A stretch of DNA of 64,000 nucleotides, from NCBI GenBank assembly GCA_011109175.1, contig RDEW01000068.1:145900-209899 (forward strand), read 5' to 3'. Made by a program: the position numbers and the translations under genes. The notes under the pieces were generated by a model that was given only the letters and a program-made list of their open reading frames with translations, did not search any database and was not told where the DNA came from. Below, one piece after another: positions 1 through 64,000 of this stretch (positions are counted from its first letter, which is position 1; each line of letters starts with the position of its first letter). Origin of the DNA: Dicyema japonicum. Lineage: Eukaryota > Dicyemida > Rhombozoa > Dicyemidae.

Positions 1-60
1 CTAGCCAACTCCTCTCTATTTATAATTTTTCCTCTGCGATCCGATTTTGTTTAGCAGGGT

Positions 61-540
61 CAGTGATCTTTACTATGTAATTGCGCCCGGACGGGGGAAC
101 TCTCTTCTTTTATCAGGGAAAATACTTGATTTGGGATGGGCCTTGCACCAATACTTTTTCCCAGTAAAGACTTGCTGGTTCCGCGCTGAAAGTGGGGAAG
201 CTGCTCGGACTTTCGAGAATTTCAAGATAAAAAATACGACAGCATCTCCACCAGACCCGTTTCTTCGAGACAAGCGGAGTCTTTCTGCCCAAAAAGGTAT
301 CTTTTCTAAGATCGCTTGAGTCAATGATATCGAAAGTGAGTAATCTACGTCGGGAAACCGAATGGCTGTTCCAAAGGATTTCTCTGGCAGTTGTCAGGGA
401 AACAGCCATTCCACCTATCAGCTGGATTATTTTGATTGTCTTTTACGTAATAAATTGTTTTTGTTTTCTTTACTATATTATTAATAAAAATAAGGTCATA
501 CAGCGGCCTGATTGACCTATTTACCACAAAATTAAATTTC
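61..540 (-). CDS. Unrecognised gene, left-arm copy
   Basis: I do not recognise this protein. Long overlapping open stretches on the minus strand (345-542, 113-409, 73-324) are duplicated in the right arm, and the breaks between them look like short introns. A candidate intron is at about 213-240, GT to AG, 28 nt. One open frame reads DVDYSLSISLTQ followed by AILEKIPFWAERLRL. The exon structure is not settled because alternative splices give different frames. It lies downstream of the epimerase gene on the same strand. The right copy has lost one G in the corresponding GGTGG stretch near 58856. Confidence 0.35.
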
Positions 541-788
541 ACTACAAGTTTCTCTCTCCGTTGAAACTTTACTTAAGAATGAAAACGAACTAACCCCAAC
601 CCTAGTCTGTAGCATCAAGGTCAAGCACTGTAACGTTTATTTTAGTGTAACGACTTTAATTTTACCATATTGGCTACTTATCGGGTATGAAAATTTATAC
701 AAATGGGTATAGTAAGTCTAGCTTTGGATGTGATCCCTAGAGGTTTCTAAAATAGTCACGTTGTTAGGTAATAACCATTAGTTAGTAT

Positions 789-1259
789 TTATTGTTCTTC
801 TAACTCAATGAGCACTCCATGGCAGTCCTTTGGGTGAATGAACATTATTCGTTTCCCGTGAGCGCCGATTGTGGGAGTTGGGGAAAGTGTCCTAATGTTG
901 TTTTCCCTTAACCTTTCGATCAATTCATCCAAGGCGGGCACCTTTGTTGAATAAACAGACTACTTCTAGACATATGTGGTGGATTCCTTCGTTCTGCTTC
1001 TTCAAAAATTTCAAAATTGGACTTTTCTCCCCAAAGGGAGCGATAAACTAAGAATAATCAATTGACTAACTTCAATTTTGGTGTTATTCAGGTTCATAAA
1101 AGAAACCGTCACTCCTTGAGAAGGCAGTGACTAAGAATTACCACTAACCTACTTCTGGATTTGAAGGTTTTAGGTTCAAGATGTCCTTAAAACTCTCCCA
1201 ATATTTTGAATGGCCGGAATTGCCACAGCAATGTGATTTATTTTGGTTATTTGATACAT
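789..1259 (-). CDS. MCEE: Methylmalonyl-CoA epimerase, left copy (one frameshift)
   Basis: It converts (2R)- and (2S)-methylmalonyl-CoA in mitochondrial propionate metabolism; the fold is the vicinal-oxygen-chelate (glyoxalase) type. After removal of three short introns (1131-1152, 942-963 and 1048-1070; 22, 22 and 23 nt) the frame reads INHIAVAIPA, QGVTVSFMNLNNTKIE, GIHHICLEV, IGAHGKRIMFIHPKDC and GVLIELEEQ. These carry the two metal-binding His residues (NHIAV, HHICLE) and the C-terminal Glu (IELEE) known from the family. Length is about 130 residues, close to mature animal epimerases; a mitochondrial leader is not evident. One base is missing in the A-run at 1189-1192, so the frame breaks after IGRV. 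The right copy has that base but is broken elsewhere. Confidence 0.87.
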
Positions 1260-1384
1260 TTCCGTGATTATTTAAATTATTAATTTTAAATATTCATATT
1301 TTGATATTTATTAAAATATAACTAAACTTTATTTAGCCAACAGAAAAAGTTAATATTTAATCCTCAAGCAGGTTTACTTTAACA

Positions 1385-1600
1385 ATGAGAACAAACCATC
1401 ATTCAGAGGAAGACCTAGAGTCACTCTACCCGTGGCTCTGAACAAGGATCTTAATGGGATTAGAAGAAATCTTAAATCTGCAGAAGACCTAGAAGATCTA
1501 AGGACAGATGCGCAAAGCAGAGGGCGATGGAGACGCCTAGTGAAGCAGATTGTGACACGTGTGGTACAAACGGGACCTTAGTTAATATAACGTTCTTTGG
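1385..1600 (+). mobile_element. LINE 3' ORF fragment (RTE-like)
   Basis: The frame reads PSFRGRPRVTLPVALNKDL and continues with GRWRRLVKQIV. It is the C-terminal tail of the same LINE family found complete in both arms, where the equivalent is KPFRGRPRSTLPT. The element is 5'-truncated. Only its first roughly 45 bases survive in the right arm (57669-57714), which helps orient the 12-kb difference between the arms. Confidence 0.6.
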
Positions 1601-3416: not shown

Positions 3417-3564
3417 AAGGATATACATCACCCTTCTTTAATTCCTATTCCTCAAACCACCTTGCCCACAGAAAATTTGTGTTGGATCCCAGAAGGCGCA
3501 CGAAGAGAAAATGAGAAATCTGATTGAGGCCTTCGAAATCACTTAATTATTTATTATTATGTAT

Positions 3565-3850
3565 TAACCCCGGATACGCCGAGAAAGAAGTTGAAGTAAA
3601 CAACTAATTAAGTGTATCCAGTTTCCACTTCTACAGAAACAGAGTCCATCCGGAATCAGAATAAAGGGTAAGACGTCCATTACATGCAGTTGTGGAAATC
3701 CCTCCAGTGGAGTGGGGGAGAGCAAATAATTCTTTTTCGTGCCGGCCTGGCACTGGGCGCCACTCTAATAGGAAGAGAGAGGAGGAACAGACATGCAAGC
3801 AGAAAACTTCAACCAATTAACCACGCAGACCACATGGCGCCACCACACTT
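3565..3850 (-). mobile_element. SINE-like repeat (family 2)
   Basis: A roughly 300-bp repeat recurs at 4805-5160, 9305-9620, 60925-61100 and as fragments at 11125-11240 and 37085-37150. In its sense orientation the 3' end reads TTCTCGGTGTATCCGGGGTT followed by AATAA repeats. That tail resembles the 3' end of the LINE at 3960-4475 (TTCTCGGTGTTCCCGGGGTT), suggesting it borrows that LINE's machinery. Here the copy lies in reverse. Confidence 0.75.
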
Positions 3851-4730: not shown

Positions 4731-4804
4731 GGACGTCAACAAAAATGGAAGATTGCGGACTAATTATCCACCTCTCTTCGGAAGCGGAAGCCTGAAATTT
4801 ATTT

Positions 4805-5160
4805 ATTAACCCCGGATACACCGAGAAAGAAGTTAAAGTGTATCCCAGATTCCACTTACAGTAACTATTAAGTGTATCCGGATTCCACTTTACAGAAACA
4901 GAGTTCATCCTGAATCAACATAATGTGTAAAAGACGTCCATACTTGCAGTTGTGGAAACCCCTCCAGTTAAAATGGGAGAGAGCAAATGATCCTTTTTTC
5001 GTGCAGGCTGGCACTGGGCGCCACCTTGACAGGTGGATCACATGACGCCACTCTAATAGGAAGAGAAAAGGAACAGCCGAACAAACAAAAACTTCAACCA
5101 ATTAGCACGAGGCAACCACGTGGTACCACGCGGTTACATCACTATATCAAGCCTGCAATA
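4805..5160 (-). mobile_element. SINE-like repeat (family 2)
   Basis: A second full-length copy of the repeat described at 3565-3850, again in reverse, with the conserved ATCCACTT and GGCACTGGGCGCCAC blocks. A short internal duplication of the TATCC...TTCCACTT segment is present at its left end (4825-4890). Confidence 0.72.
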
Positions 5161-5718: not shown

Positions 5719-8700
5719 TGTTTTTGATTCGGTGGCGTTAAACTCTGTCGAGTTGGCAAAAATGTTGAAAGGAAAAAAGGAGAAGGGTCACTTGCGTTAC
5801 CTGATAATATGAATGTAATTCTTGCCATATCCGAGATCGTTGTGGGTGATGACCCAAAAGAATGGTCGAGGCAGGTAGTCCTGCAGGTACGTAGCAGGCT
5901 ATCTCGAATGCCCTGGAATGGTTGGCCATACTTGGCGGAGCTCTGCAGTGGCAGATTCAGTACTGCTATATATGTGAGTGAACTCAAGAAGATGGCTGTA
6001 GGCATAGAGGGTACTGGTCTAAAGGGGCGGGGACCAGGTGACCACAACTGTCAAAGAGAGCACGAGCACCAGAGCTGTGATACGTTGCAACTCAAGCATG
6101 TTTATGAGGTCTTCGCGCGGAATCTCGCTGCAGCGGCAGATGTCCCACTTGAGGACCGTAGATTTACCTGCAAGATTCCTCATTGTAAGGTTAACGGTGT
6201 AGTGTTAACCTGCATCAATAAGGCTGTGGCTTATGCGGTGGAGGCTAAGCCAGTAGGGTCACTGGGTGACATCTCCCTAGTGCTGTATGCAGCACAGATC
6301 ACCTATGAGGAATTGACGGACAAGCCCAGACCACCCAGTAAATGGAGGGAGCAGATCTGTGCCAAGATTGCTTGGAGACAGACTGAGCTGGAGGGGCACA
6401 TAAGTAGTGTGGCGAGAGGGGTTAGAGGAAAAGCACCGGCTATAGTAAAGTGGCTAATTAGTAAACTCCGTGTTCTAAAATGGGACCTTAAAGAGTTGAG
6501 GAGGGCAAAGGTGGAGTTAGAGGGGGCAATATTGGTGTACAAGAGGAAACTCTATACACATGAAAGTCGGTGTAAGAGAAAACGAGAAAATAATCTGTTT
6601 GAGTTTAATCGCAGATTGTTTTACCGTCGCCTACACGAAAATGGCCATAGTGTATGTTCCCAGCAGGACGCAGAAATGTGTTCCACATGGGGTAGTATGT
6701 GGGAGGCTAAACCACGCAGAGGAAATGCGTGGAATGTCCCGTACAGAGCCGCTCCTTTCTTGGCGGAATCTTGCGGAATTTTCGATTTTCGAAAAAAATT
6801 TGAAACGGTAGTGAGACATCTCCCTGATTGGAAGACGACCGGGGTCGATAAAGTTTATAATTTCTTTATCAAAAGATGCACTTCATTACACGAGTCTATG
6901 TGTCGTGTATTACAGAAAAGCATCACTAACCCGGAAACGATTCCTGATTGGGCATGCACAGGGACAACTTATTTGATCCCAAAGCTGGACAACCCCCAGT
7001 CTGCTGCAGATTATCGACCGATAACCTGCATGCCAACCCTGTATAAGCTGATGACCAAATTGGTGGCTAATGAGGTCAGGAGCTTTGTAGACGCAAATGG
7101 GATTCTCTCCGAGAATCAGTTGGGACTGTGCGAAATTGTCAGGGGGCAAAAGAGCAGGCTTTGATCAACAAATGCCTTTCTGTGTCTCACGGAAACTCAC
7201 TTTTGTCTATGTGGGTGGATGTGAAGAAGGCTTACGATTCAGTTGATCATTCTTACCTTGTCGAGTGCCTACACAGTCTGTGTATGCCTGTGTGGTTCAT
7301 CAGCTTTGTAGTGGCTGTGATGAATAGGTGGAGTATTCATCTGAACTATAATAGGCACCGGATAGGCGAGGTAAAACTCAAGAGGGGGATCCTTCAGGGG
7401 GATAGCATGTCTCCGCTACTCTTTGTTCTCTGTTTGGAGCCATTGAGTCGCCGCCTCAATGACCGGTTTGAGCAAATACCAGTTCATTGTGAAGGGGTCT
7501 GTTTCAGTACAAATCACCTTCTTTTTATCGATGACTGAAGATGTATGCTCGAACAGCCGAGGAGCTCTACTCCATGGGGGTCTGTGCCAGGGAATTCTTT
7601 GAGAGTATAGGGCTAGATTTGAATTATTCAAAGTCTGCGACTAACACGCAAGTATGTAGCGAGTTAGTAAGAGTCCTAGAGGAACACGAAGGATATAAGT
7701 ATCTGGGTGTTACCGAATCTCCAAAGTCCCTTATAATGCCTGAGACAAAGCGACAAATTACTGAAGGCATCCGTAAAAGAGCAGCGTTATTGTGTAAGAC
7801 GTCTCTAAATGCAAGGAATTTGTTCCTAGCATTAAATGAGTATGCTGTCTCGCTGCTAAACTACTACATAGGTGTTGTGGAGTTTGAGCCCAAAGAGTAT
7901 GATGAGATGGATGTTATGATCCGTGGAGTACTCAGAGAGAACCATGTCCATGTGTTGGCAGCCAATAAGGAGAGACTATATTTACCCCGTGATAAATTCG
8001 GCCGTGGACTGTGTGGAGTAGTCCAACTAAGTGAGCGTATCCTAATGCGAATGCACGACACCCTGATAGCTGGGTCAAGTGTGTCTGCTAGGAAGCACGC
8101 CATAATAACGACCGAGAAAACACGGGCAACCCACCTAGGCACTATCAGACCTTTTTTGTCTGCTAAGTATGGTGTTGATGATGGTGGGCTAGTAAATGTG
8201 AAGGCGTTGATCGAATTACAATATAATAATTTGATGGAAAAGATCAACTTAAAAAGCCTTCATAAGGTCCTCTTCAGAGCATTGGACAACCCACATGTCG
8301 ACCTTAAGTCGTCGACAATATGGCTAAAATACGGTGACAACTCACCTCGATCGGAGGCGCTGTACACGTATATGCAAGACCGCAATATTTTTTGGGGTCG
8401 ATCAACAAATACATGTCCCCACTGTAAGTCAAGGAGCATGTCGGTTGATCATTTAGCCACTCGATGTGGATCCATGCTTTGCCACGACTATGTGTGCAGG
8501 CATAACGAAGTAGTAAGGAGTCTTCATCTTCTACTATGCAATAAGTATTCGCCACACCAGAAAGTTGCGGACTCATAAGGTGCAATTTGCAGTAGAAAAC
8601 ACCAGGGTCCAAATTAAGGTAGACAGTGTTATCCGTACCTCGGTGCTAGTCAAGCACAATAAACCGGACATTTTGGTACACGATAAGGAGTCTGGCCAAG

Positions 8701-9620: not shown

Positions 9621-9721
9621 TAATAATCTAAAATTCAATTCAAATACGAATCATTCAATCAATTTTTTGATTATTATGAAATCAAATGGAATACTTTTAT
9701 AAAAAAATACAGTTAAATTAG

Positions 9722-10740
9722 TTTTCACTTTAGACAAATCGTATTCTGGTTTAGAACTTAAGGTTAGAAAGGCCATTTTTACTGAAAATTTAAGATTTAT
9801 CGACAACCACAATTTACTCGCAAAACAAGGAAATTTTTTGTATGAATTGGGAATTAATCAGTTTGCTGACATGGTTATCTCATAAAATAATTTTGTAGAC
9901 AAGGAGAGAAATATTCAAACCCAGCAAATTCAATTTATATAATAATTATAATTCTTATGGTAAATTGGAAAATGAATTAATTGGTGATTACACTATCCAT
10001 GAGAAAAAATATCCTTCATCTTTAATTGGGTAAATAGAAACTGTGTGACTGATATAAAATCCCAAGGATATAAATGTGGCTCATGCTATGCATTTGGCGC
10101 AGTTAACGAATGTTTAATAGATTTAGTTGGCTACATTGGAGTCACATTTTGCAATCAAACACAATAAACTTATATCAATGAGCGAACAAAATATGGTTGA
10201 TTGTGCGAGTGATTACGGATGCACTGGTGGATCACAAATTATGGTGTATCATTACATTCAAATAAACGGTGGAATTAATTCTGAAAAACGGTATCCATAT
10301 ATTGCCAAAGTAATTTCGACAGATAATTAATTATATAGGTTAGAAAATGCAAATATAGAGGTCAACCAGATATTAAATTTAATTTGACTACATATAAAAT
10401 ATTTAAAGGTAATGAAAAAATGCTTTTGCGTACGCTTGTAGATGTTGGTCCTGTTTCTGTTAATGTTCAGGTTTCTTTAAGCTTTGATCGCTATTTTATA
10501 GGTAAAAATATAATGAAACGTTTTAGGAATATTCCATTACAAATATTGTATAAATGAGTATCATTTGCATACAATTTCTGTTGTGGGTTATGGAATTTTA
10601 AAAGGGGGAAAGTATTGGCTCATTAAAAAATTCATGGGGTAAAACATGGGGAATATTTGGCTATATGAAAATGGTACGTGGGAAGGATAATTGTGGCTTA
10701 CCCTATAATCGAATAATTTTATCGTTATATTTGATAACTT
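9722..10740 (+). pseudogene. Cathepsin L-like cysteine protease, decayed or frameshifted
   Basis: The propeptide shows an ERFNIN/I29-type region (RKAIFTENLRFIDNHN, then ELGINQFADM). The mature domain shows the catalytic Cys motif CGSCYAFGA, LATLESHFAIKHNKLISMSE, CASDYGCTGGS, a His region (HLHTISVVGYG) and a KYWLIK...SWGKTWG block. Four introns of 25-29 nt are needed: 9874-9898, 10102-10126, 10310-10338 and 10502-10526. Two one-base lesions break the frame: a missing T near 10020 before NWVNRNC and an extra A in the run at 10625-10630 before the catalytic Asn block. No signal peptide or start is visible because the SINE at 9305-9620 sits just upstream. If the homopolymer lesions are sequencing errors, most of a protease would be readable. 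Confidence 0.85.
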
Positions 10741-12110: not shown

Positions 12111-12853
12111 ATGTTTTTAATATTTTTAGTGTTTTTGAGAAATGTAAAATTACTGTAATTCAAAGGGACAATCAATCTCCGAGGAGGATAAGCAGGCGTT
12201 TATTGACGCCCACAACAAATTTCGGAGACAAGTCAATCCCCCAGCAGCAAACATGAAGAAAATGGTAGAGATTTTAAGTGAAGGAAGGAATGGAACGAAG
12301 AATTAGAAGCACTAGCCACAGAATCCAGCAAAACATGCATTTACAAACACAGACATAAAGGGGAGAATATGGCTTATTCCACCTGTAGAAGTGCTCTGAT
12401 TATTATTTAAGGGTCTGAAACTCCCGAGGAAGTAATACAAAGGTTTTACAACGAATACAAATACTACTCACATGGCAATTCAAAATGTTCACACGTATGT
12501 GCCCACTACACGCAGGTTTACTCATTCGTGACCTAAGGTCGCCTGGGCGAATAGCGACAGTTTCGCTTGCAACACTCATTTTTGCGAGAATTTGCTTGTT
12601 AATAGTAGATACTTAAAGAGTTATGTGACCTTCTGTAATTACGCCCCAATGTTTGCTGTTTACGCAATTTAGTGGGAATACTGGGGGAAAGCCTTATATA
12701 GCAGGAACACCTTGTAGCATGTGCGATCAGGAAACCCCTAAGTGTGACGATAAACTATGCACGAGTAATATTGCGTACGGTAAGACGATTGACGACACAG
12801 ATAGTAGAGAAGTGGGGGATCTGAATAATGTGCCGAGTTATTGTTTGTTTTAA
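12111..12853 (+). CDS. Secreted CAP/SCP-family protein, intact, six ultrashort introns
   Basis: A CAP-superfamily protein (cysteine-rich secretory type) of 201 residues after removal of introns at 12144-12165, 12265-12287, 12385-12411, 12516-12537, 12651-12672 and 12780-12800 (21-27 nt). The N-terminus MFLIFLVFL is a signal peptide. Domain motifs follow in order: FIDAHNKFRRQVNPPAANM, EWNEELEALA, HKGENMAY, the CAP1 motif CAHYTQVAW, the CAP2 motif YVTFCNYAP and a Cys-rich hinge (GTPCSMC...KCDDKLC). Without the introns the frame breaks repeatedly; with them every family motif falls in phase. The last intron is the least certain because it contains no stop. The gene occurs only in the 12-kb block missing from the right arm. 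Function beyond secretion cannot be told. Confidence 0.92.
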
Positions 12854-14796: not shown

Positions 14797-17041
14797 TCAC
14801 ATCGCAAAAAGAGTATATTTTTGTAGGATTTGATTCTTTTCATCCACAAAAAAAATAGCATACAATTTAGTTCCAGTGATAATAAAAATAATGACGGATC
14901 CGTGGACGGTAAGGATAAGATAATCAATAAAGATCCCATAAATCGCGTCTGACTTGCCAAGACTGGGGAGATACATCACCCAAATCCCGAGAATAATAGC
15001 AACCCCAGCAATAATGGCCTTCACCTCGTTGTAGTTTTTGCTGCTCTTTCGCTTCAAGTAAGCAATATAGATGATGACAAAAAGGGGGAGAAATGTTATG
15101 ACGATGAGAAGCCAATAATTCAAATTACTTTTAAGACATAGGGGGTACTTATGCTTGACGAAGGTTTCAGTTTTGATATAATACTTCGTTCTCCCAGTGA
15201 AGGTGATTCCAAAGTAAAATATAGCCTGTATAGTTAAATATGGGACAAACGTGCAGGAAGATTAAAATGGCTGTGATAATAAAAGTAAATTTGGAGTCCT
15301 TTTTGAATACTCGGCTTTTCTCCTCATCAGTAAGGATCCTTACTAACATTTTGTTCCTGTAGATTTTCACAATTCTTACGAGAATCGACAAGTAAATAAT
15401 GGAGACTGAGAGATTGGGGAGGAAGTAATAAATCTGAGGTATTACAGCACAACATACCCAACATATTTTATTAGAGAGGAATGTGAACGTAAACACACCG
15501 GAAAAGTAGATCATGAATTTGGAGATAAAAAGGTTTACGTGGATGGACAGGTCAGTGTACACGAATAGCTTTGATTTTGACTTGGAAATGAAGATAATCA
15601 CGAATATAAAGATGACAATAAAGTCGGCCGTCATTATGTAAAAAATCGTTAGCTTAGAATTATTTGTAAGAATGTAGGTCGTAAAGTTAATTGTCCGACA
15701 CCTGAAAGTTACTACCAAAAAACTACGAATTTAAGAAATCTTTAGCAGGGATCATGTCATAAGGACATTTTTGGCATTTTTTCTCTGTTTCATTCACAAA
15801 TGAATTCTCTTCACATTTTATGCACCTAACGCATATGCTTGTCTCGATTACTTTCGCATGACCATACGGGCATTCCAAGCTATTTTTGGTTGAATCTACA
15901 TCCCCCATTATTTTTTTAACCCATGTTTTATCCGTGGATGATAATTCGTAGTGGATTAGATTTCCTAATGGGTCTGTTTGAGGGAAAATTATTATTTGTG
16001 AAATTTGTATTTTTCCATATTCCGTGAATGTTAGAGGAGGGTTTGTTATATTTGTTCCCTTTAGCATCTCCTGCATTATATTATCACACTGACTTTCTAT
16101 TTTTACTAAAACGAGTAACCCCCAGAACATCGTGTGAGAGCATTATTTGCAATGGAGATTGCTGCAATCAACATGATGCCTCTGTTGCCTTCCATGAATT
16201 TATCAATTCGAGGGAGTTGATGTGAAAGTCCAATATTGATGAAATTGTGGGATATTATGTACAGATTGGGGACTTTTCGAAAAGTCGACGTATTGAAGAC
16301 ATTTGTGGGGACAGCAATTATAATTCCCTTCGTATTGGCATTTACATAAGAATTTATATAAGGGGAGACATCCTCACGAATAAGGATAATAATTTCGTCA
16401 TCATTCAAATCCAAAGAAGATGGGTCTTTTGCTACGCACACTCCTTTTTTATTTAATTTTTTGACGAAATTTTCGACTTCTTTATCTCCATCAGTGAACA
16501 GTACGACTCTATTTTTTTTAGTTTTGTGGTAAATTTGACTGATGGTTTCTGCCAATTCGTCCGTAAATACGAAGAACGATAACTTGACTGTGAGTTGGGG
16601 ATCTTCAGATTCATTATCGAAAGAGTTCTGGTATTTAATTTCCTTTATCTCGATGCTCTTGTTTTTATACTCAATTCTGACTTTGCTTGGTTCTTTTACT
16701 ATACATTTTTTGATTTTAAATATATCCTGACTCCTCGATTTTACTGTTTGAAGGAGGTGCTTATTAATATAGTCTTCGATTTCTGATCTGATCTTCTCTC
16801 CCTCGCAATTCAACAGTACCTCTACGTTGATGCCAAATTTGTAAGCTTTTATAACATCATCAAGAAATATTTTCAATGAGGTTGTAGTATTTTTATCATA
16901 TTTTCCGTAGTGATGAATTTGAATTTGTATATTGCCACCTCCTACCATTAATCGGCACTTTTCGTCTTTGAGTCTGATGAATCGTACGCATTTTTCCCTT
17001 TGTCCACTCAGTTGTATAAAACATGCAACCACCCAGAACAT
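14797..17041 (-). CDS. Class C (metabotropic-type) GPCR, left copy, intact
   Basis: A 721-residue receptor encoded in four exons with introns at 16106-16128, 15702-15726 and 15154-15184 (23, 25 and 31 nt). It begins with a signal-like MFWVVACFIQLSG. About 290 residues of divergent extracellular domain follow, which I cannot assign confidently to the Venus-flytrap fold. Next comes the class C cysteine-rich segment (CPYGHAKV, CVRCIKCEEN, CQKCPYDM) at about residues 380-425. Seven hydrophobic segments follow; the TM5-TM6 loop has NYNEVKAIIAGVAIILGIW, matching the class C NEAK motif. The ligand is unknown. It differs from the right copy by nine residues and no indels, in contrast to the neighbouring genes. 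Confidence 0.85.
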
Positions 17042-18158: not shown

Positions 18159-18873
18159 TCAACTGAGCATCTTTCTCCTCTGTTTCAGCATGTGGTTGTA
18201 AAGCGGGGGAAAGTCTGAAATGAAAAAAAAGAATACAAGGAATGTACGACAACATCAACAAGGCAATCACATAGTCAAATGTTACTTCAAAGTTGGCTGC
18301 ATTAGGCATAGTGAGTCCCCACCCACGTGCGTACTGTATAGTATTATAAAGAAGGAGTAGCTCACACTAGCATTATAAGCACAAGTACAGTCACTCCGAT
18401 TGGATACAAAACTATAAAGAAGGAGTATCTACACCACAAGAGAATCAAGGAAGACAACATCAGCAAGTTTATGGTGTACAACAGATAACGGATCACCTCG
18501 GAAAGTGACCATGCCATCAGTAGTGACTGTACAAGAAGATTATTTGGCCACGTGGGAACTGACTTGACAGTTACCCACCAAATAAAGAGACGGGAGGACA
18601 CTTGTAAAGTTGTAATAGAAGGACTAGATTTGACCAATCTGCTGTATGAGTGGAGTATCTGCAATAATTAAGTAGACTTACCTCCATAATGGCTAGGGTT
18701 TGGAATATTGAGACCGAATCTGAGAATTGTCTAGTTGTCGTAGTATTAACAAACGAGTAAAGTGTGGAATACAGAATATAAGACCACCTATAATACAGTA
18801 ATGTGGATAACCCTATGAACTGAGAAATGTTATAAAATAATAGATAAAAGTGACCCAACAAGGAATGTCCCAT
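18159..18873 (-). CDS. HACD: Very-long-chain 3-hydroxyacyl-CoA dehydratase, left copy, intact
   Basis: It dehydrates (3R)-3-hydroxyacyl-CoA in the ER fatty-acid elongation cycle. Three introns (18659-18681, 18367-18388, 18215-18236; 23, 22 and 22 nt) are removed to give 215 residues. Family blocks are FYLLFYNISQ, IFQTLAIMEILHS, LQVSSRLFIWW, MAWSLSEVIRYLLYT, WCRYSFFIVLYPIGVT then CELLLLY, SYIPYFPPLYNHMLKQRRKM. The catalytic Tyr and Glu are seven residues apart (YPIGVTCE); the Glu is present only if the 22-nt intron at 18367-18388 is spliced. Multiple hydrophobic segments fit the family's ER membrane topology. The right copy has two one-base deletions. Confidence 0.9.
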
Positions 18874-37780: not shown

Positions 37781-38320
37781 CTACATAAATACGGTCGGAT
37801 CTATTGGAGGGAAGAATACATCACAGTCATAATGACGGGCAATTACTGTCAAATATATCCTGCCCACGTGGAGTTGGATGAGAGAATCCTACAATAACCA
37901 CATTAATACTTCATACACTCGCTGTCCCCCAATACAGTATATTTCATGCACATTAGGCATTTCCTGGAGGGAAAAGTAAGCATTGGTGAGGGAGTTGAAT
38001 AATAGCACGTGGTTTTCAGTACTGTGAGGAATATCGGCGTTGGGGGAACAGCTTAGAACAGCGTTAACTCTGTTTGGAAGAGGTCGATTCTTTTTGGGGA
38101 TTGATTCCCAAGTTTTCCGTCCCATTATAACAGCGTTTTGCATTCCAAACATAATCTACTTAAAATACCGTCAGGTGCCTCAGATGTCACACTCTTAAAG
38201 TATTTCAGATCTATTCTACTATATTAAAATTTTGATGAACTTGGAAAACCAAGGAATTTTCCCTTTAAATCCTATCCCGTTGTTTAAACACGTGGCAACC
38301 ACCAGACTAACCTGTCTCAT
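37781..38320 (-). CDS. DHFR: Dihydrofolate reductase
   Basis: It reduces dihydrofolate to tetrahydrofolate with NADPH. Start MRQVSLVVATCLNNGIGFKG at 38320. Introns at 38216-38240 (25 nt), 38156-38190 (35 nt) and 37889-37909 (21 nt) give 152 residues in one frame. Motifs: GIGFKGKIPW (substrate loop), DLKYF with the active-site acid, MGRKTWESIP (NADPH-binding), NRPLPNR, CIGGQRVYE (glycine pair) and CDVFFP. The protein stops about 30 residues earlier than typical animal DHFR, so the last strand may lie in an unrecognised downstream exon or be lost. The 35-nt intron is the least certain splice. It is divergent from the next gene, with starts 289 bp apart. Confidence 0.87.
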
Positions 38321-38608: not shown

Positions 38609-39569
38609 ATGGCAGAATTATTAGTAAACTTTGTAAAATAATTTTAAAGACATTCATCTCATTAAACGCATGTAACGAGCTAATAACATTCCCATTGGAC
38701 ACAATCAAAACAAGAATGCAAAGCAAAGTGGGGTACTCACACCCAATATCACTCTCAAAGTTCTACTCAGGCATTTCTCCTTCAATTGTTAACACTCTTA
38801 TTGGAAGTATGTTTTATATCTTCAATCAGCAATGACTCACGTCGCAATGTATGAGGTTTCCCATTCCACCCTTCTGAGCAAGGGATATAGGAAACGTGAC
38901 CCAACAGCTCAGGTTTTGTCCTCAATCTTCGCCTATTCCGTACTTTTATTGCATAATGTGAGACTACGTCCATCTTCCTCTGCCCATTGGAGGTGATCAA
39001 ACAGAACTCCCAGTTTCTGTCCATAAGGTCTACGAAATGTGCCTCGAAAATTTACAATTTACATGTCATCCACAATTTTACTTTTAGGGGATCACTGGCT
39101 TCTACCGAGGACTTATAGCCTTTGTCTATAGAGACATCACGATGGTCTCCGTCCATCTGCTGCTTTCGTATCATCTTCAGGTTGAACTTGTATCAAATTT
39201 AGAATGTCTGGAGCTTCCTTCAAGAGCGAAGAGTTGACAAGAATCAGTCAATCTGCTGTTCTGTTTTTGCCGGTTTGATTATTCTGTGACCTCTTTGTAG
39301 GATTGGTGGGTCTCTTGGTCAGTTCACCACTGGATGTGCTCAAGACCAGAAAAATGTTGATGGTAGTCAGTTTGCAATTATTCCAAGGATGACTGGAGTC
39401 CAAAATATGTAGAGGTCCGTGAAGTTGTTAAGGATTTGAATAAGAGGGGAATTCGTGGGTGTTGCAATCTCTTATGTTTAGATACTTTATTGGTACCTCA
39501 TATCGTGCTGTGATCTTCTTAGCTTATATTATTTCCTATAATTATATTTTCTATGACAAATTGAGTTAA
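38609..39569 (+). CDS. SLC25A26: Mitochondrial S-adenosylmethionine carrier, nine ultrashort introns
   Basis: A mitochondrial inner-membrane carrier that exchanges SAM for S-adenosylhomocysteine in the best-matching family. Nine introns (38624-38649, 38807-38829, 38856-38882, 38940-38962, 39065-39087, 39181-39202, 39273-39300, 39363-39387, 39459-39481; 22-28 nt) leave 246 residues in a single frame. All three carrier signatures appear: FPLDTIKTRMQ, CPLEVIKQNSQ and SPLDVLKTRKM, with repeat-linked GFYRGLIAFVYRD and GYFIGTSYRAVIF...YD. QNSQ and FPLDTIKTR favour the SAM carrier over other SLC25 members. No open frame longer than about 80 codons exists, so ordinary ORF calling misses it. Introns are roughly 23% of the gene. 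Confidence 0.9.
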
Positions 39570-40125: not shown

Positions 40126-40860
40126 TCATATATCATCATAATATATGTCCAGCAAGTCAGATAACTGCTCAGTGTCCATTTTTATGTCCTCAGGACACTC
40201 TGGTTTCTTAGAAGGGACAGAACACTGCATGCTCTCCATTCTGTGCATATATAACAAATACTCCAACTAATAATAATTAAAGAATTTAACGTTGTCTTTT
40301 TCGCTGGTTAAGTTCAACTCGCAGTCGTTGGGGACAAACTCGTTGTTTCCAAAGAGAACATGCCCAGCGGAAATTTGACGGGAGAGCAAGTAGCTCTGAT
40401 CCTGCATTTTTCTCCAGAGAGTTTTGAGAGCTGCAAGCTGCTCAGTCATCCACTTGTGTTTAACATAAATTATGGCATTCCTGTGTCTCTTCTTTTCACG
40501 GGACTTTCTAGCAGCCTGGAATAAAAAGTAAAATACCTCATTGTTTTTGACACGTTTTTCTCGGTATTCGACGTCGTTAAATGAAAGAGTCCTAACATTT
40601 GGTTTTCTGTTATGCTTGGGTTCATACATTTCACTGTGGTCACCCGGTATAAGTAAGCTGTGCTGGTCCTGGAGTGAGTAGTTGTAGTCTGAAGGCCACA
40701 TTTTAGCAGATTGTAATGAAATGTAGTCGTTAAAGTCACAGTAGAAAGATTCGTCGTTATAAAACGATGCAGGCATGCCAGATTCATCACTTGTTTGGAA
40801 CAACAAATTGTTCAATTCGTCGTACACGTGTCCATCATTCCCAAATCCATTTGGGTCCAT
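40126..40860 (-). CDS. bZIP transcription factor (C/EBP- or PAR-like)
   Basis: A nuclear DNA-binding regulator. Introns at 40516-40536 (21 nt) and 40267-40290 (24 nt) leave 229 residues. The 21-nt intron lies inside the basic region: unspliced it would insert VFYFLFQ, while spliced it gives the canonical VKNNEAARKSREKKRHRNA. A zipper-like helix follows (MTEQLAALKTLWRKM), with imperfect heptads. The N-terminal 90 residues are acidic and aromatic, as in activation domains. The second intron extends the protein beyond a stop at 40267 to an acidic tail (DTEQLSDLLDIYYDDI). That extension rests only on the open frame and GT-AG ends. Confidence 0.8.
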
Positions 40861-41214: not shown

Positions 41215-41761
41215 TTATCCAAAAAAGTCAATTGATTTTTCGTAAAATTCAATCACGACTTGGGGACATCTGACGTTAGCCACAGAGGCGGGGATCAAGT
41301 CGACTATTACTGACTCACTCTTCCTATAAATGGGGACCACTAGGACAACCACTTCACTAGGAATATTAATATGCCGTCTATTTTCTTTACTCCAATAATC
41401 TTTTCAGGCAAAAGACCCCTGTTGAATCCAAACTCACCCAAAATCCCGTCAGGTCCAATTTTAAGGAACCGCTGAAATAAAAAGAGGTCGAACCTGTTCG
41501 TTATTGGCTAAATTCATATTCCTCTTTATTCGATCCCTCGCTCTGTAGTTCGCACTATTTACCCTCTTTCTCAGTCGTTTTTCAAATTCCTCAATTAATT
41601 TAGGAGAATACAAGTTCGTTTCACATTCCCACGTGTTTTGATCACTGTGGAATATATTGAGAGAACAACCTAGCGTATCCCTTCCATTTGATCAGATAAT
41701 ATGTAGCGCCGTCGAAAACCCCCTTGTCAAGAATACGTTCGACTTCATAAACGTCAGACAT
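41215..41761 (-). CDS. HP1: Heterochromatin protein 1 (chromo and chromoshadow domains)
   Basis: HP1 binds methylated H3K9 and dimerises through its shadow domain. Introns at 41645-41669, 41472-41493 and 41324-41349 (25, 22 and 26 nt) give 157 residues. The chromodomain (residues about 4-53) reads DVYEVERILDKGVFDG, YYLIKWKGYASDQNTWE, with the three aromatic-cage positions Tyr, Trp and Tyr present. The shadow domain (about 95-157) reads LGEFGFNRGLLPEKIIGVKK, IFLVKWKSES and VRCPQVVIEFYEKSIDFFG. The hinge is short and basic (EKRLRKRVNSANYRARDRIK). Slightly shorter than human CBX3. All three introns are needed to keep the frame. Intact, single copy in the spacer. Confidence 0.93.
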
Positions 41762-46680: not shown

Positions 46681-46689
46681 ATCCGAGCC

Positions 46690-49960: not shown

Positions 49961-49965
49961 AAGAG

Positions 49966-50062: not shown

Positions 50063-50064
50063 AC

Positions 50065-53310: not shown

Positions 53311-53329
53311 TGCAGGGTATAGTAAATTT

Positions 53330-57842: not shown

Positions 57843-58312
57843 ATGTATCAAATAACCAAAATAAATCACATTGCTGTGCAATTCCGGCCATTCAAAATAT
57901 TGGGAGAGTTTTTAAGGACATCTTGAACCTAAAACCTTCAAATCCAGAAGTAGGTTAGTGTAATTCTTAGTCACTGCCTTCTCAAGGAGTGACGGTTTCT
58001 TTTATGAACCTGAATAACACCAAAATTGAAGTTAGTCAATTGATTATTCTTAGTTTATCGCTCCCTTTGGGGAGAAAAGTCAATTTTGAAATTTTTGAAG
58101 AAGCAGAACGAAGGAATCCACCACATATGTCTAGAAGTAGTCTGTTTATTCAACAAAGGTGCCCGCCTTGGATGAATTGATCGAAAGGTTAAGGGAAAAC
58201 AACATTAGGACACTTTCCCCCACTCCCACAATCGGCGCTCACGGGAAACGAATAATGTTTCATTCACCCAAAGGACTGCCATGGAGTGCTCATTGAGTTA
58301 GAAGAACAATAA
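57843..58312 (+). pseudogene. MCEE: Methylmalonyl-CoA epimerase, right copy, several frameshifts
   Basis: Same gene as complement 789-1259. Compared with it, one G is missing at about 57878 (GCTGTGCAATT), one C at about 58081 (AAAGTCAATT), and one T is added at about 58258 (ATGTTTCATT); an intron base also differs. On the other hand the T-run that is short in the left copy is complete here (GTTTTTAAGG). The blocks QGVTVSFMNLNNTKIE, GIHHICLE and IGAHGKRIM are unchanged. Confidence 0.85.
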
Positions 58313-58562
58313 ATACTAACTAATGGTTATTACCTAACAACGTGACTATTTTAGAAACCTCTAGGGATCACATCAAAGCTAGACTTACTATACCCATTTG
58401 TATAAATTTTCATATCGATAAGTAGCCAATATGGTAAAATTAAAGTTGTTACACTAAAATAAACGTTACAGTGCTTGACCTTGATGCTACAGACACTAGG
58501 GTTGGGGTTAGTTCGTTTTCATTCTTAAGTAAAATTTCAACGGAGAGAGAAACTTGTAGTGA

Positions 58563-59040
58563 AATTTAATTTTGTGGTAAATAGGTCAATCAGGCCGCTG
58601 TATGACCTTATTTTTATTATTAATATAGTAAAGAAAACAAAAACAATTTATTACGTAAAAGACAATCAAAATAATCCAGCTGATAGAGTGGAATGGCTGT
58701 TTCCCTGACAACTGCCAGAGAAATCCTTTGGAACAGCCATTCGGTTTCCCGACGTAGATTACTCACTTTCGATATCATTGACTCAAGCGATCTTAGAAAA
58801 GATACCTTTTTGGGCAGAAAGACTCCGCTTGTCTCGAAGAAACGGGTCTGGTGAGATGCTGTCGTATTTTTTATCTTGAAATTCTCGAAAGTCCGAGCAG
58901 CTTCCCCACTTTCAGCGCGGAACCAGCAAGTCTTTACTAGGAAAAAGTATTGGTGCAAGGCCCATCCCAAATCAAGTATTGTCCCTGATAAAAGAAGACA
59001 GTTCCCCGTCCGGCGCAATTACATAGTAAAGATCACTGAC
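58563..59040 (+). CDS. Unrecognised gene, right-arm copy
   Basis: Counterpart of the left gene at 61-540, with one G deleted near 58856 and a few substitutions. It is located just downstream of the epimerase on the same strand. As on the left, a 28-nt GT-AG segment lies inside it (about 58861-58888). No family assignment. Confidence 0.3.
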
Positions 59041-59196
59041 CCTCCTAAACAAAATCGGATCGCAGAGAAAAAATTATAAATTTAAAAAGAGAAGAGTTGG
59101 CTAGTATGGAGCCTTCATTTTAACTTAACAGTAATGGCATTGGACATTAAACCACGTGCCAACATAATATCAAATCGTCAACATAAAAACCGATTT

Positions 59197-60793
59197 TTAA
59201 TTAGAATCAAAATGGTCAAATATACAAGTCAATCTAAAGCAGTCTGAAAATCTGTGCGGATTATAGAGGGGACCTCCATTGTAAATGTCAACAAGCTGTT
59301 GTTTCCTCTCTCCAAAACAGTCAGAGTATCCACCATCCACCAGTAATCGAATAATCTCATACTTGCATTCATTATCTACCAAATAAACCCACCACCTACA
59401 CTCAAATGACCTCCCAATCATCACCCTCACAACATATTCCTGAAAACTAATGTTCTTGGAGAACAAATCAGCCATACCCCCACACAGTCATCAGCGATTT
59501 GATCAGCTTTACTGCAGAAAGCGATGAATCGTCCTCCAAAGAGGAACACTTGTGGCAGAGAAGTAAGCATAGATCTCCATTGGAATTCATTAATTCAAAA
59601 AAACCGTCCAGCATTCTCATTGAAACTTGGCGATAGTCTGACACATCTCCAAAACACGAGACGACCAGAAATTATGGGAATCGGGGGTTTTAAGATAGAG
59701 AGAGAACGATATATCCGCCAGTCTCTTTAGGTGGAAAGACTCACGTTCTTCCAATAATGAGTTGAATATTCGATTATTTCTCAAAATCAGAGAAAATGAA
59801 TCAACTACTGTCAAAGAGAGGAGTTTTGTGGATGATTTTTGTATTATAGTGAGGACATCCTCCACATATTTGGACAAATAGTTCTCCAAAACATCCTGAC
59901 CAGCCACGAGTACAACCGAACACAACTGAATATAGCCCCTTTGTGCCATAGAGTCCATTTCGGCAGAAGAAAGTAGTTCAAACGCACGTGTCAAAGGTTT
60001 GAGGAGTGAAAGCAGTCTCCCTGCCTGTTTTGAGTTCTCAGCGAATCCAAGCAGAAGTAGAATCGTCGCCTGCTGCATAAGATAATCGTTCTTAAGACAG
60101 TCTTTGGCCATAAAACTGAGGAATCCGGACAAATCATCGATCAATGACGAGTCTTCATACGAACATTGGAGTATGAGCTGCTTATTAAAGACACTATACC
60201 TCATAAATTGGCATCCTGATGGCAGGATCAGCTTCAAATGTAATCATTATGGACCTTTCTATCTTTGATAGAACCTTTGTGAGGAACTTTGGCTTGTTTT
60301 CTAAGCTTAAATATTAAAATCAACTGAAAATGGACATTAAAATTGATTGTGTGTGCATGGACAGCTCGTCATCAGCCAAATACAAGAAAAGTATCCTCAG
60401 AATCTCAAAATAATCCTCAACGTCCTCATTGATGTTCTTAGTCTGCCATTATAAAGCTAAGTACCAAATATATGCAGATTTTCTTGCAGGACCTTAAGGG
60501 TAACTCCAGCCCTGTCAAAAGCAACTCCTCTGACCCACGGATTTCATAATCATTAAAAATGTCTACTTCCTCCAGCAAACTATCACAGTAACTTGAAATA
60601 AGACTAGTCTCTACTTTTTATCGTCTTCCTCGAGCTGACAAATACGCTTACAGATGATTATAAACAATTCCAACATTTGTCTGGGAGGAATGGTTTCTAG
60701 TTGATTTCCAATTTTTTTGCTTGAAAACATATTTCTGAAGTTACTGAGAAATTGGTCATCATCTGACTTGATAAGACAATTCAATAAATCCAT
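59197..60793 (-). CDS. PSMD5: Probable 26S proteasome assembly chaperone PSMD5/S5b
   Basis: A helical-repeat protein of about 476-480 residues. Introns are at 60592-60614, 60437-60464, 60306-60335, 60178-60199, 59455-59485 (22-31 nt) and one ending either at 59638 or 59626 (start 59657; 20 or 32 nt, both in frame). The C-terminus resembles PSMD5: FQEYVV, then KYEIIRLLVDGG, CFGERKQQLVDIYNGGPLY and NPH, compare the family's KYELVKAL, FG, YL.EGPYY, P. An internal PAIRMPIYELIL also fits RYRVYELII. S5b binds the proteasome base ATPase Rpt1 during assembly. Overall similarity is weak elsewhere, so another HEAT/ARM protein is possible. All exons join in one frame without internal stops. Confidence 0.65.
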
Positions 60794-60924
60794 ACGTGAG
60801 TTATTTTAAATAATAATTTATTTATGTTGATTTTTATAAATTATTAATAATAATTTATTATTAAAATATTTTTAATTGGTAAATGTCTAAAGAAAATCAA
60901 AACAATGGAACATTCACGATTTAT

Positions 60925-61100
60925 TAATTAACCCCGGATACACCGAGAAAGAAGTTAAAGTAAACTACTAATTAACTGTGTATCCAGATTTCACTTCTAC
61001 AGAAACAGAGTCCATCCGGAATCAACATAAAGGATAAAAGACGTCCATACTTGCAGTTGTGAAACCTTTCCAGTGGAGTTGGGGAGAGCAAATGATCCTG
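60925..61100 (-). mobile_element. SINE-like repeat (family 2), truncated
   Basis: TTAACCCCGGATACACCGAG to GGGGAGAGCAAATGATCC, the tail half of family 2 in reverse, cut at an R2-like fragment. Confidence 0.7.
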
Positions 61101-61104
61101 TTGA

Positions 61105-61430
61105 GAATTCAAAAGTGTTGATAAAGGTGGACACAGTAATCAAAATCTCAGTTTCTGTACAGTACATTAAACCAGATAATGTGCTTTATGACAAATTATC
61201 AGGGTGGTGGGCATTACTTACTGAGAGATTTTGTGAACAATGAAGGTGGGGAGTAAAGTGAAGTAGGTTCTTTTCTCAGACGAATACATCTGTGCAAAGT
61301 TATCCCTTAATGACATGAGATTGTTTCGTTACTAAATTCCAGAGGTACTTGAGACAGTTGGAAGTGGATAGAAATATTTACGCGTACAACCACCAGTCAT
61401 CGAAAGAACCCTTGAAGGCATGTCCCCGAA
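61105..61430 (+). mobile_element. R2-like element fragment
   Basis: ENSKVLIKVDTVIKISVSVQ, YIKPDNVLYDKLSG and YLRQLEVDRNIYAY match the nuclease region and tail of the element at 8590-8925. Stops and frameshifts are present. Confidence 0.65.
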
Positions 61431-61699
61431 GCACTCGTGTGAGTCCTCTTGTGAACCGACAATGCAATAGTAAAGAGTTTACTAAATCCTGACTACGGAC
61501 GGAAGCAAAGGGGATGCTAGAAACCATCAAACTAACAAAGCGGTTTCACCGTCGTGCGAAACCTCTCTCATGTCGTCCAAATGTTCTCACATATTATTTT
61601 ACGTACTTGAGATCAGCATCAAGTATCTCAGAAGTGGGAGTCCACAGAAACGTAGCCCAGTCTCAACGAAGTATTCCTCCATCACTATTCTAGGCAGGT

Positions 61700-63140
61700 A
61701 TTCATTTCCAATCACAATATATGCCCGAAGAGCCAAATAACTGATCTCAAGACTCAAAGGATCTTTGATCAAACAAGCCTTTTTGTCTATTTTCTTTGGT
61801 CAATTCAGTCCGAACAATGCTCTGAGCTGCCTTCGATGAATCGAGTCTATTCGAGCTCTCCAGGTTTTCTCGCTGCCCACGTTGAGTAATTGTACAATAA
61901 ACTGATTTAAGCGTTATATGATCAGAATGATATACTTGATCATTTGTTGTCAATCCAGTTCCTTTTGACTTTGTTATGTGCAGCTGTAGCAAGGGTATTT
62001 CTTCCAACAGTGTACTCATTGTCTCCAAGTAAGGACCCAAGCTTATTGGTATTCCTCCATGGCTCATCTGATCTTCTTTCCATCCTTCTATATTCACTAC
62101 TTATGTTTTGAGAACATTCATTGTTATTAACCATTTATAAAGTTCATTAGGAGTCACTTCCAATATCCGAAGAAGAGCTTATCTATCCCCTGATATTAAG
62201 TCGATGTCTTCAGCATAAGTGGATTCAGCTATATCACCATTAAATTTGCGAAGGTCCCATAGCATCTTCTCCAAGTATGACAAATAACAAAAGAGAGAGT
62301 AAGTCCTCTTGAGGAGTGTCCTGAGTCGTTAATGCCAAACGCAACATTATATGCAGTTTTGGCAATTCGAACTCTCAGCTTTGTGCTGAATAAAAGGACT
62401 CATCATTTCCGCTGAGTTAAAATTCAGAAATCCTTCCATTGTAGTAGACCTCGAAAAACTGTTTCGAAAGTCCTCGGTAAGCATGTGCCAATGATTGTAG
62501 TTGCGTTTTGGTATTTTTAGTTTACAGCTCAGTGTCGTTTGTGGCTCCAAACTATATCCGTCGTTGATCTCCAAGATCTGAATCCGCGATGACTTGATAA
62601 AGATAGTCGTCCACTTGATCTCTGATCATTTTGTATTCTTGTATCTTATATGTATCTTATCTCTGATCATTTTGTATTCTTGTATCGGAATTCCCTATAC
62701 TCCTTTGCGCTAATACAGAGCGTATCCTGTAGAGGGAATTTTGTGGTCACTGTCAGTCCACCGACAAACCTCGAGTAGCACAAAAGAGATGCGACAGAAA
62801 ATCAATCTGATTGGAAATCTTTATCAAAGTTCATATGTCAGTCATATGTCTGCAGCCAGTTTTTTGTGGCTGCATAATGTTGGAACAAAATGTTAAGAGA
62901 AATAAGTTAAAGGCGTAGCAAAAACTGCCAAGACTGTGCTAGGGAAATCCTATTCCCCTTCCATACATTTCCGTTCAAGTAGGATTAATCTGTAGTCTAC
63001 ATGATACTCATCGATTCCTTCTTTGACTTGTCTTGATAGCATCAGATTGATCCTCTGCATTTTTCCAAATAGTGACGTGGTGCCTCTTCAGTCTTTTAGA
63101 CTTCTGCCATTGAGGGTTATATTAATTAACCCGTTAACAT
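61700..63140 (-). mobile_element. RTE-like LINE, heavily decayed
   Basis: On the minus strand: endonuclease remnant NLMLSRQVKEGIDEYHVDYR and LILLERKCM (about 62940-63070), RT remnant GFRSWRSTTDIVWSHK (near 62540-62590), NTNKLGSLLGDNEYTVGRNT and LATAAHNKVKRNW (about 61960-62050). These match the arm LINE blocks TKIEKGRDETWDNYR, GFREGRSTADIVWSH and RRKTLANAAMAKLKK. Confidence 0.6.
62614..62687. repeat. Short tandem duplication
   Basis: TGATCATTTTGTATTCTTGT with flanking CTC and ATC occurs twice, about 42 bp apart. Confidence 0.8.
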
Positions 63141-63403
63141 CCCCCAAGCGTGAATTAGGCACCATGGAGATGGGCTTCACAGCCTCAACCAATAAAGTTG
63201 ACTGCTTATAGCCTTTAACTGATTTTTTAATAAATTCAATTATCTATCCGCACATTAACAGTGTAGTCTCACTCAATTTCCCTTGACGGGGTCACCTTAG
63301 TGTCAAATTCAGTCACTAAAATCGATAAAGGATGACAAGTTTACGCGGAATTAAAACTGTCGAAGTTTCGTTGAGACGTAACTAATATAAACGTAACATC
63401 ACG
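63141..63403. other. Upstream region of the bZIP gene
   Basis: No repeat match recognised; presumably includes the promoter of the gene at 63404, but no defined element stands out. Confidence 0.35.
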
Positions 63404-63716
63404 ATGTTAAGGGATTTATTAATGGATAAGATGAGAGAGAAGAACAGACTGGCGGCAGCCAAGTACAGAAAAAAGATAAGCTCGAGGATTAGGGAACTAG
63501 AACATGTATTAGTGTGACTTATATTAGGAATTGAACAGTAAAAAGATGGAATTATGTAAAAAACTGAAGGATTCTGCGTTTAAAGATTATTTGAAAGCTG
63601 TTCTTGAGGGGAAGGAGAAGATGCCACTTGACAGAGAGACGATCGTTACAATGTCGTACCAAGAGTTTGCGGATTACATGAGGGATTTTTTTGATAAAGC
63701 TTCACGCCTACCTTAA
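63404..63716 (+). CDS. Small bZIP protein
   Basis: 96 residues after removing a 22-nt intron at 63506-63527. The basic region MREKNRLAAAKYRKKISSRI carries the bZIP N-x7-R-type signature (NRLAAAKYR). The intron removal joins RIRELEHE to LNSKKMELCKKLK, making an amphipathic zipper; unspliced, the frame hits TGA after HVLV. A short C-terminal segment follows (DRETIVTMSYQEFADYMRDF). Start at 63404; the Met at 63422 is an alternative. It resembles Fos/ATF-type basic regions but is too short to place in a subfamily. Confidence 0.84.
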
Positions 63717-64000
63717 TTATTTATTCAAGGTCAATGTTCTTTCTGGTTAATTTGGTTCGTTTGGATAACAATTAATGCTAATGACCGTGAGTCATTCAAT
63801 TATAATGACACGTGGTAAATGTAAGTCATTAGGAGGGGGCATTTCTCAATGTCATTCTTAATTTGGTGTTCTTTAAGAGTTCAATACACTCTCCTTATGC
63901 TTTCGTTGCATACAGGTGCGGTATTTTTCGTGGGAGGTTGCTGCAGTCACATAACTGGGAAAATTTTGTAGCGTCTCGATTACTGTGGATTGGAAATCTT
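63717..64000. other. End of window, nothing recognised
   Basis: No gene, repeat or structured element visible after the bZIP stop codon. Confidence 0.4.

Follow-up and report, generated by a model that had tools for sequence, protein, structure and literature searches.

Introduction

Ultrashort introns of dicyemids were already published in 2007, 2008 and 2019, and the headline finding of the present analysis is in that sense known. In Dicyema acuticephalum, Aruga et al. 2007 (PMC2222250) reported a length of 26.2 ± 1.9 nucleotides (nt) for 16 introns, and Irimia and Roy 2008 (PMC2483917) described 41 introns of 24.9 nt with a donor score of 0.5 bits, the weakest known, and, in the parts of that study covered here, no branch-point signature. 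Zverkov et al. 2019 (PMC6543705) gave a median of 27 bp for Dicyema sp., with about two thirds of the predicted introns below 30 bp, and a median of 57 bp for the orthonectid Intoshia, and Lu et al. 2019 (PMC6736024) described a Dicyema japonicum genome of 67.5 Mb with a GC content of 36.7% and a mean intron of 38 bp. Among minor introns, a pan-eukaryotic survey (NAR 2023, PMC10639083) found the shortest average in Blastocystis, at just under 42 bp; the term 'dicyem' is absent from its main text. Here we analysed the introns of a stretch of 64,000 nt (contig C156, positions 145900-209899), hereafter the window, together with the genome of 64.7 Mb in 191 contigs to which it belongs. Many genes of the window are cut by predicted GT-AG introns about 21-35 nt long, and we consider them very probably to be spliceosomal introns of the ordinary U2 type, reduced in a dicyemid mesozoan to a near-uniform length of about 20-30 nt.

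Results

Introns of 21-35 nt in ten genes of the window

We re-curated the introns of ten of the 13 genes in which an initial annotation of the window had placed them, leaving out the kinase, MCEE and RagA. As the boundaries were picked by eye and by hand with GT-AG ends required, only the lengths and the restored proteins count as evidence from these genes. That annotation had claimed GT-AG introns measuring 21-35 nt, and these lengths are borne out by the 36 introns that we re-derived (mean 24.7 nt, standard deviation (SD) 3.6, median 23.5, range 21-35, G+C 30%). They are distributed as eight in the SAM carrier, five in the cathepsin, four each in PSMD5 and CAP, three each in DHFR, HP1, HACD and the GPCR, two in bZIP-A and one in bZIP-B. 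For the same ten genes the earlier count was 39 plus one ambiguous intron, the disagreement lying at the SAM carrier, CAP, PSMD5 and cathepsin genes. The predicted introns are listed below with their strand, and boundaries that are less certain are marked.

38624..38649, +, SAM-type mitochondrial carrier intron 1, 26 nt
38807..38829, +, SAM carrier intron 2, 23 nt
38940..38962, +, SAM carrier intron 3, 23 nt
39065..39087, +, SAM carrier intron 4, 23 nt
39181..39202, +, SAM carrier intron 5, 22 nt
39273..39300, +, SAM carrier intron 6, 28 nt
39363..39387, +, SAM carrier intron 7, 25 nt
39459..39481, +, SAM carrier intron 8, 23 nt
38219..38240, -, DHFR intron 1, 22 nt
38156..38190, -, DHFR intron 2, 35 nt, boundary less certain
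37889..37909, -, DHFR intron 3, 21 nt
41645..41669, -, HP1 intron 1, 25 nt, within the chromodomain WKGY..TW motif
41472..41493, -, HP1 intron 2, 22 nt
41324..41349, -, HP1 intron 3, 26 nt, within the chromoshadow domain
60580..60614, -, PSMD5-like intron, 35 nt, boundary less certain
60443..60464, -, PSMD5-like intron, 22 nt
60301..60324, -, PSMD5-like intron, 24 nt
60178..60199, -, PSMD5-like intron, 22 nt
9712..9733, +, cathepsin intron, 22 nt
9874..9898, +, cathepsin intron, 25 nt, within the propeptide GINQFADM|T motif
10102..10126, +, cathepsin intron, 25 nt, directly 3' of the CGSCYAF motif
10310..10338, +, cathepsin intron, 29 nt
10502..10526, +, cathepsin intron, 25 nt
18659..18681, -, HACD (PTPLA) intron, 23 nt, the sole GTRAG donor among the 36
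18334..18367, -, HACD intron, 34 nt, boundary less certain
18215..18236, -, HACD intron, 22 nt
12265..12287, +, CAP-superfamily (CRISP-like) intron, 23 nt
12385..12411, +, CAP intron, 27 nt
12516..12537, +, CAP intron, 22 nt, within the HYTQ|VAW signature
12651..12672, +, CAP intron, 22 nt
40516..40536, -, bZIP-A intron, 21 nt, in frame and stop-free, splits the NNE|AARKSR basic region
40267..40290, -, bZIP-A intron, 24 nt
63514..63538, +, bZIP-B intron, 25 nt, boundary less certain
16097..16119, -, class C GPCR intron, 23 nt
15702..15726, -, class C GPCR intron, 25 nt
15226..15250, -, class C GPCR intron, 25 nt

Splice sites had also been described as falling inside conserved motifs, and we found the same for HP1 (WKGYA|SDQNTW), CAP (HYTQ|VAW) and bZIP (NNE|AARKSR). 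Retention of the 21-nt bZIP-A intron (40516-40536, minus strand) would lengthen the basic region that binds DNA by seven residues and could serve as a regulatory switch.

Splicing restored recognizable protein domains. We compared Pfam bit scores of each spliced protein with those of the best single unspliced frame, the stretches compared being unequal in length, and observed that all eight domain scores compared, from seven genes, were higher after splicing: Mito_carr in the SAM carrier (93.9 bits spliced versus 31.8 unspliced), Peptidase_C1 in the cathepsin, a member of the papain family (154.3 versus 72.5), Chromo and Chromo_shadow in HP1 (69.9 versus 26.9 and 68.4 versus 35.8), PTPLA in HACD (147.5 versus 93.4), the CAP domain (57.1 versus 26.6), bZIP_2 in bZIP-A (36.9 versus 22.6) and DHFR_1 (100.1 versus 75.1). 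The other three genes gave scores below cut-off: a weak family match for the PSMD5-like protein (14.1 bits, cut-off 23), bZIP_2 in bZIP-B (17.7 spliced versus 13.8 unspliced) and, in the class C GPCR, 7tm_3 (33.3 spliced, cut-off 33.5) and NCD3G (25.0 spliced versus 23.9 unspliced, cut-off 38.9). The SAM carrier was spliced by hand, and a search for its homologues returned just two unnamed proteins (32% and 28% identity), so it was not taken as a reference for spliced alignment.

Intron ends and lengths in Prp8

We used Prp8 (L049, contig C87) for a test in which the intron ends were left free. The gene was aligned to coral Prp8 (P0004) with a purpose-written spliced alignment that allowed introns of 10-60 nt, and the alignment was repeated with every one of the 256 combinations of end dinucleotides, scores being sums over two overlapping halves. 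GT-AG ranked first with a score of 9516, followed by TT-AT at 9281, and the intronless alignment scored 3750; after correction for dinucleotide abundance, GT-AG stood 6.6 SD above expectation. GT-AG ends are thus found on Prp8, whereas in the window genes they were imposed. Across 2197 aligned positions the spliced product, which contains a single in-frame stop, is 81% identical to the coral protein; this identity was computed on the original choices of the alignment, before the substitutions described next.

The curated Prp8 introns (n = 36) measure 20-26 nt, with a mean of 23.2 and an SD of 1.2. Of these, 31 are as output by the spliced alignment, and the remaining five (23, 24, 24, 23 and 22 nt) were substituted for alignment introns of 14, 38, 49, 170 and 183 nt, the last three of which share reference position 1527, where we judged coral to lack residues. 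The substitutes came from a gene finder, except a 24-nt intron near residue 1212, which we read by eye from a longer gap that has a frame break close by. When seeded with the Prp8 open frames and given a flat length prior of 12-300 nt, this gene finder placed 35 introns, 33 of them in Prp8, and 32 of the 35 were at most 35 nt long. Both the window introns (21-35 nt) and those of Prp8 (20-26 nt) show the length of about 20-35 nt and the narrow spread of the dicyemid type.

The tight clustering of lengths in Prp8, the first rank of GT-AG among the 256 end pairs, the restoration of domains across unrelated genes, and the Pax6 homeodomain introns that share phases with D. acuticephalum (see below) make it highly improbable that sequencing indels or lesions of pseudogenes account for many of the apparent introns. 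Such a reading can point to a large inverted repeat in the window and to frame breaks that, by our own reading, are independent of introns, namely two in the cathepsin gene (9560-10760, plus strand) and one each in Prp8 and Pax6 elsewhere in the genome, all of which could be residual assembly errors or decay.

Pax6 and the dicyemid identity of the genome

As the initial annotation had proposed a dicyemid-like animal, we hand-spliced a Pax6 gene (L050) from the same genome for homology search. Its best match was D. acuticephalum Pax6 (315 bits, 63% identity over 89% of the query), 53 bits ahead of the next protein (262 bits), and a spliced alignment to the D. acuticephalum sequence covered the whole 408-residue protein at 53% identity. 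The alignment contains seven introns, of which a 20-nt phase-2 intron offsets a frame break and is untrustworthy; the two homeodomain introns are in phases 1 and 0, as reported for D. acuticephalum (PMC2222250). The proposal is upheld by this match and by intron lengths that are dicyemid-like and not orthonectid-like, neither the window nor the Prp8 introns approaching the median of about 57 bp of Intoshia linei. By these sequence affinities the host genome is that of a dicyemid, of a species other than D. acuticephalum.

Similar introns occur in Paramecium (20-35 bp) and in a nucleomorph (PMC2222250), and on that ground one could argue for a source in another lineage with short introns, such as an orthonectid, a ciliate or a different protist. 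Such a source is scarcely credible given the margin and full-length alignment of Pax6, the orthonectid median, and the animal-type genes of the genome, which include Cav2, a class C GPCR-like gene and four PAX-domain loci.

Donor, branch and acceptor signals

Using the curated introns of Prp8 and of the window, we asked which signals they carry. With intron composition as the background, the information at donor positions +3 to +8 is about 0 bits each for Prp8 and does not exceed 0.1 for the window. GTRAG donors number 0 of 36 in Prp8 and 1 of 36 in the window, and a G at +5 is present in 1 of 36 Prp8 donors. Measured against intron composition, the predicted donors are thus nearly uninformative past the GT.

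We then compared real introns with decoys, defined as exonic GT-AG pairs 20-26 nt apart (36 introns versus 119 decoys in Prp8; 36 versus 112 in the window). The best separators were A+T content, with an area under the curve (AUC) of 0.994 in Prp8 and 0.795 in the window, and a YAG end (0.72 and 0.74, respectively). Pairing with U2 did not separate introns from decoys above chance (AUC 0.52 in Prp8, 0.46 in the window), and in a comparison with shuffled introns donor-U1 pairing was no better in either set (z -0.1 in Prp8, 0.8 in 23 window introns), with U2 pairing at z -1.6 in the same 23 window introns. A CTAAT- or TAAT-like core had been noted in several window introns; as a general signal, a branch core complementary to U2 is not supported by the decoy and shuffle tests. 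The introns therefore show the weak donor and the lack of a branch signal that mark those of dicyemids, with one mixed result, a z of 2.4 for U2 pairing of the Prp8 introns against shuffles.

This last value, together with exonic AG before the GT (AUC 0.75 in Prp8, 0.62 in the window) and U1 energy (0.71 and 0.61), both of which exceed decoys, could be taken to indicate that U1-donor and U2-branch pairing still governs intron choice, weakly and aided by other factors. We regard this as unlikely, as U1 matches on the intron side do no better than chance in the window (AUC 0.51) and reach 0.70 in Prp8, where A+T richness alone raises matches, and as U2 pairing is at chance level against decoys in both sets.

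The same three results also count against short, nearly signal-free U2-type introns, our preferred interpretation, and further observations do so as well. Against a uniform background, donor columns hold 0.46-0.86 bits per position in Prp8 and 0.04-0.40 in the window, because the introns are A+T-rich, and a G at +5 occurs in 7 of 36 window donors. A+T content is just a moderate discriminator in the window, and A+T richness may be the mere composition of unconstrained introns and not a signal read by the spliceosome. Curation by eye with GT-AG imposed biases the end statistics of the window introns. Furthermore, a plain scan of donor-acceptor spacing in the window gave no peak near 25 nt, and a loosely self-trained gene finder with a flat length prior drifted, so that only 75 of its 157 introns were at most 35 nt long.

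Major small nuclear RNAs and splicing factors

We searched the genome for the major small nuclear RNAs (snRNAs), scoring the top candidates only (for U1, 41 of 1105 candidates). The ACUUACCUGG 5' end of U1 is intact in 10 of 11 loci (L021-L031), although all 11 matches fall below the Rfam gathering score, the best at 69.0 versus 69.5. U2 gave 25 matches, 22 of them above cut-off, and GUAGUA is present in all 12 loci read; U6 gave 10 matches, with ACAGAGA in all eight loci read. Major snRNAs with conserved contact regions, as expected of U2-type splicing, were therefore found for U1, U2 and U6. Among proteins, exon matches at one locus, each below the whole-protein cut-off, span positions 168-510 of the 510-position U2AF65 profile and define a U2AF65-like gene, and SF1 is represented by one match above cut-off.

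The initial annotation had suggested looking for changes in U2AF, SF1, U1 and U2, and the outcome is largely negative: a U2AF65-like gene and SF1 are present and the U1, U2 and U6 contacts are conventional in nearly all loci read, U2AF35 having been outside the search. It is accordingly doubtful that the major spliceosome has been remodelled for small introns through altered U1, U2 or U6 or through lost or changed proteins, as the snRNA counts above, the two splicing-factor matches and the 81% identity of Prp8 to coral all speak against it; the sub-threshold scores of all 11 U1 matches and the near absence of a donor consensus are what such remodelling would have on its side. Changes at the level of proteins may still exist, with U2AF35, SPF45, Smu1 and RED lying outside our tests.

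Two further features of these loci were observed. The U1 copies L021-L031 differ from one another outside the 5' end, and contig C115 carries six U2 RNA matches, one of them short (108 bases), within about 111 kb (851074-962467).

A U12 RNA and longer AT-AC introns

The genome also contains one match to U12 RNA, at 85.4 bits versus a gathering score of 53. The presence of a minor spliceosome is indicated by this RNA, the one component searched. U12-type introns have a ATATCCTT donor, a CCTTAAY branch motif and AT-AC ends. Counts of U12-type patterns in the genome do not convincingly exceed those of controls (41 versus 51 in the reversed control, 10 versus 4, and 11 versus 13). We read the coding context of 12 of the 41 pattern matches and found four between plausible exons by eye and eight that were not. 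These four AT-AC candidates, all outside the window, share ATATCCTTTTT...TTCCTTAAY, and an AC six nt further on restores the frame, a spacing that was imposed by the search.

L071, AT-AC intron, 53 nt, Cav2-type calcium channel
L088, AT-AC intron, 52 nt, GGPP synthase
L085, AT-AC intron, 48 nt, SMAP1-like ArfGAP
L082, AT-AC intron candidate, 50 nt, phospholipase C (PLC), upstream exon unconfirmed

At L071, L085 and L088 the joined exons align to solved proteins with no gap at the junction, such that the ATATCCTT donor, TTCCTTAAY branch and AT-AC ends occur together in coding context. At L082 (PLC) the match begins after the junction and supports the downstream exon alone. The 53-nt AT-AC intron of the Cav2 gene is followed, one exon further downstream, by a GT-AG intron of 24 nt, and the 48-nt AT-AC intron of the SMAP1 gene is preceded, at a distance of one exon, by a GT-AG intron of 23 nt. 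The length contrast is weakened at GGPP synthase, where the upstream GT-AG gap fits 35 or 38 nt. We conclude that the genome retains a predicted U12 RNA and a few putative AT-AC introns of about 50 nt, roughly twice as long as their GT-AG neighbors in Cav2 and SMAP1.

From these data we somewhat favor the view that two spliceosomes work with two length floors, the U2-type near 23 nt with nearly signal-free introns and the U12-type AT-AC near 50 nt with near-perfect signals. Our confidence in this view is held lower because the six-nt spacing was imposed and because the AT-AC pattern searches, which could detect shorter introns, were blind to ones much over about 65 nt. In the searchable literature, which excludes most subscription papers and bioRxiv preprints, we found no report of dicyemid minor introns: 'Dicyema' with 'spliceosom' retrieved Aruga et al., Zverkov et al. 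and Irimia and Roy, and 'dicyem' with 'minor intron' retrieved none.

Repeats and other elements in the window

Rfam and tRNA scans of the window gave no matches. The inverted repeat pairs 13557-29212 with 42020-57410 and 18-1429 with 57673-59081, its long blocks being 92.6-98.4% identical, and may reflect either a genuine palindrome or two haplotypes joined during assembly; GPCR and HACD open frames occur in both of its arms. A dispersed repeat of about 170-240 bp is found at 3557-3727, 4797-5104, 9337-9575 and 60919-61099, and a TCTCGGTGTATCCGGGGTTAAT stretch precedes the cathepsin gene (near 9596) as well as the PSMD5 gene (near 60930). Open frames resembling reverse transcriptase by eye (5728-8578, 28488-30513 and 43723-44472) and partial RVT_1 Pfam matches, mostly below cut-off, near 13.0-13.4, 26.3-26.6 and 35.4-35.7 kb mark a retroelement-rich stretch. 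A FLYWCH zinc-finger domain (49.6 bits) is encoded at 36275-36730 on the plus strand, in an open frame with a C-terminal end similar to that of a frame near 9000.

Discussion

If the window introns are ordinary U2-type introns of a dicyemid, the major spliceosome would recognize each as a single short unit, that is, by intron definition. The cues would be the GT and YAG ends, an interior rich in A+T and a length within narrow bounds, to which exonic AG would add a little. Extended pairing of U1 with the donor or of U2 with the branch would be of little weight, and the conventional snRNAs would therefore be kept for catalysis and protein contacts and not for site choice. U12-type introns, by contrast, may depend on long donor and branch motifs and so be held near 50 nt.

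The contribution of this genome beyond its known short introns is as a test bed for what a spliceosome reads. As the U1, U2 and U6 contacts appear conventional while introns of about 23 nt have near-uninformative donors, the question of which cues are used becomes experimentally sharp. Two aspects are worth pursuing, namely conventional snRNAs set against near-signal-free introns, and a U12 RNA accompanied by AT-AC introns twice as long. If the minor spliceosome fails below about 50 nt, dicyemids would offer a natural gauge of how small an intron each of the two machines can handle. The compactness of the window introns had been described as near the physical limit for a spliceosome, which is right in part, as Aruga et al. 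2007 (PMC2222250) point to more extreme introns in a nucleomorph.

Introns of similar size are found in Paramecium and in the Bigelowiella natans nucleomorph (PMC2222250, PMC2483917), where donors are largely GT(A) and, in the parts of those papers covered, there is no branch-point signature. These lineages are unrelated to dicyemids, and the resemblance is convergent. The AT-AC candidates are like U12-type AT-AC introns of other eukaryotes in their motifs and ends. They measure 48-53 nt (n = 4), the shortest average in the pan-eukaryotic survey being just under 42 bp (PMC10639083). The closest system is D. acuticephalum (PMC2222250), which belongs to the same phylum and shares the narrow lengths and, as far as phases and not exact positions were compared, the phases 1 and 0 of the Pax6 homeodomain introns; it differs in that full-length Pax6 is 53% identical and the Prp8 introns here are slightly shorter, at 23.2 nt. 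The 2019 genome papers of Zverkov et al. and Lu et al. hold, in the parts covered, no snRNA or U12 analysis, both of which were examined here. Beyond the work of Irimia and Roy, the present analysis compares 72 introns with the U1, U2 and U6 RNAs of the same genome and adds a decoy test.

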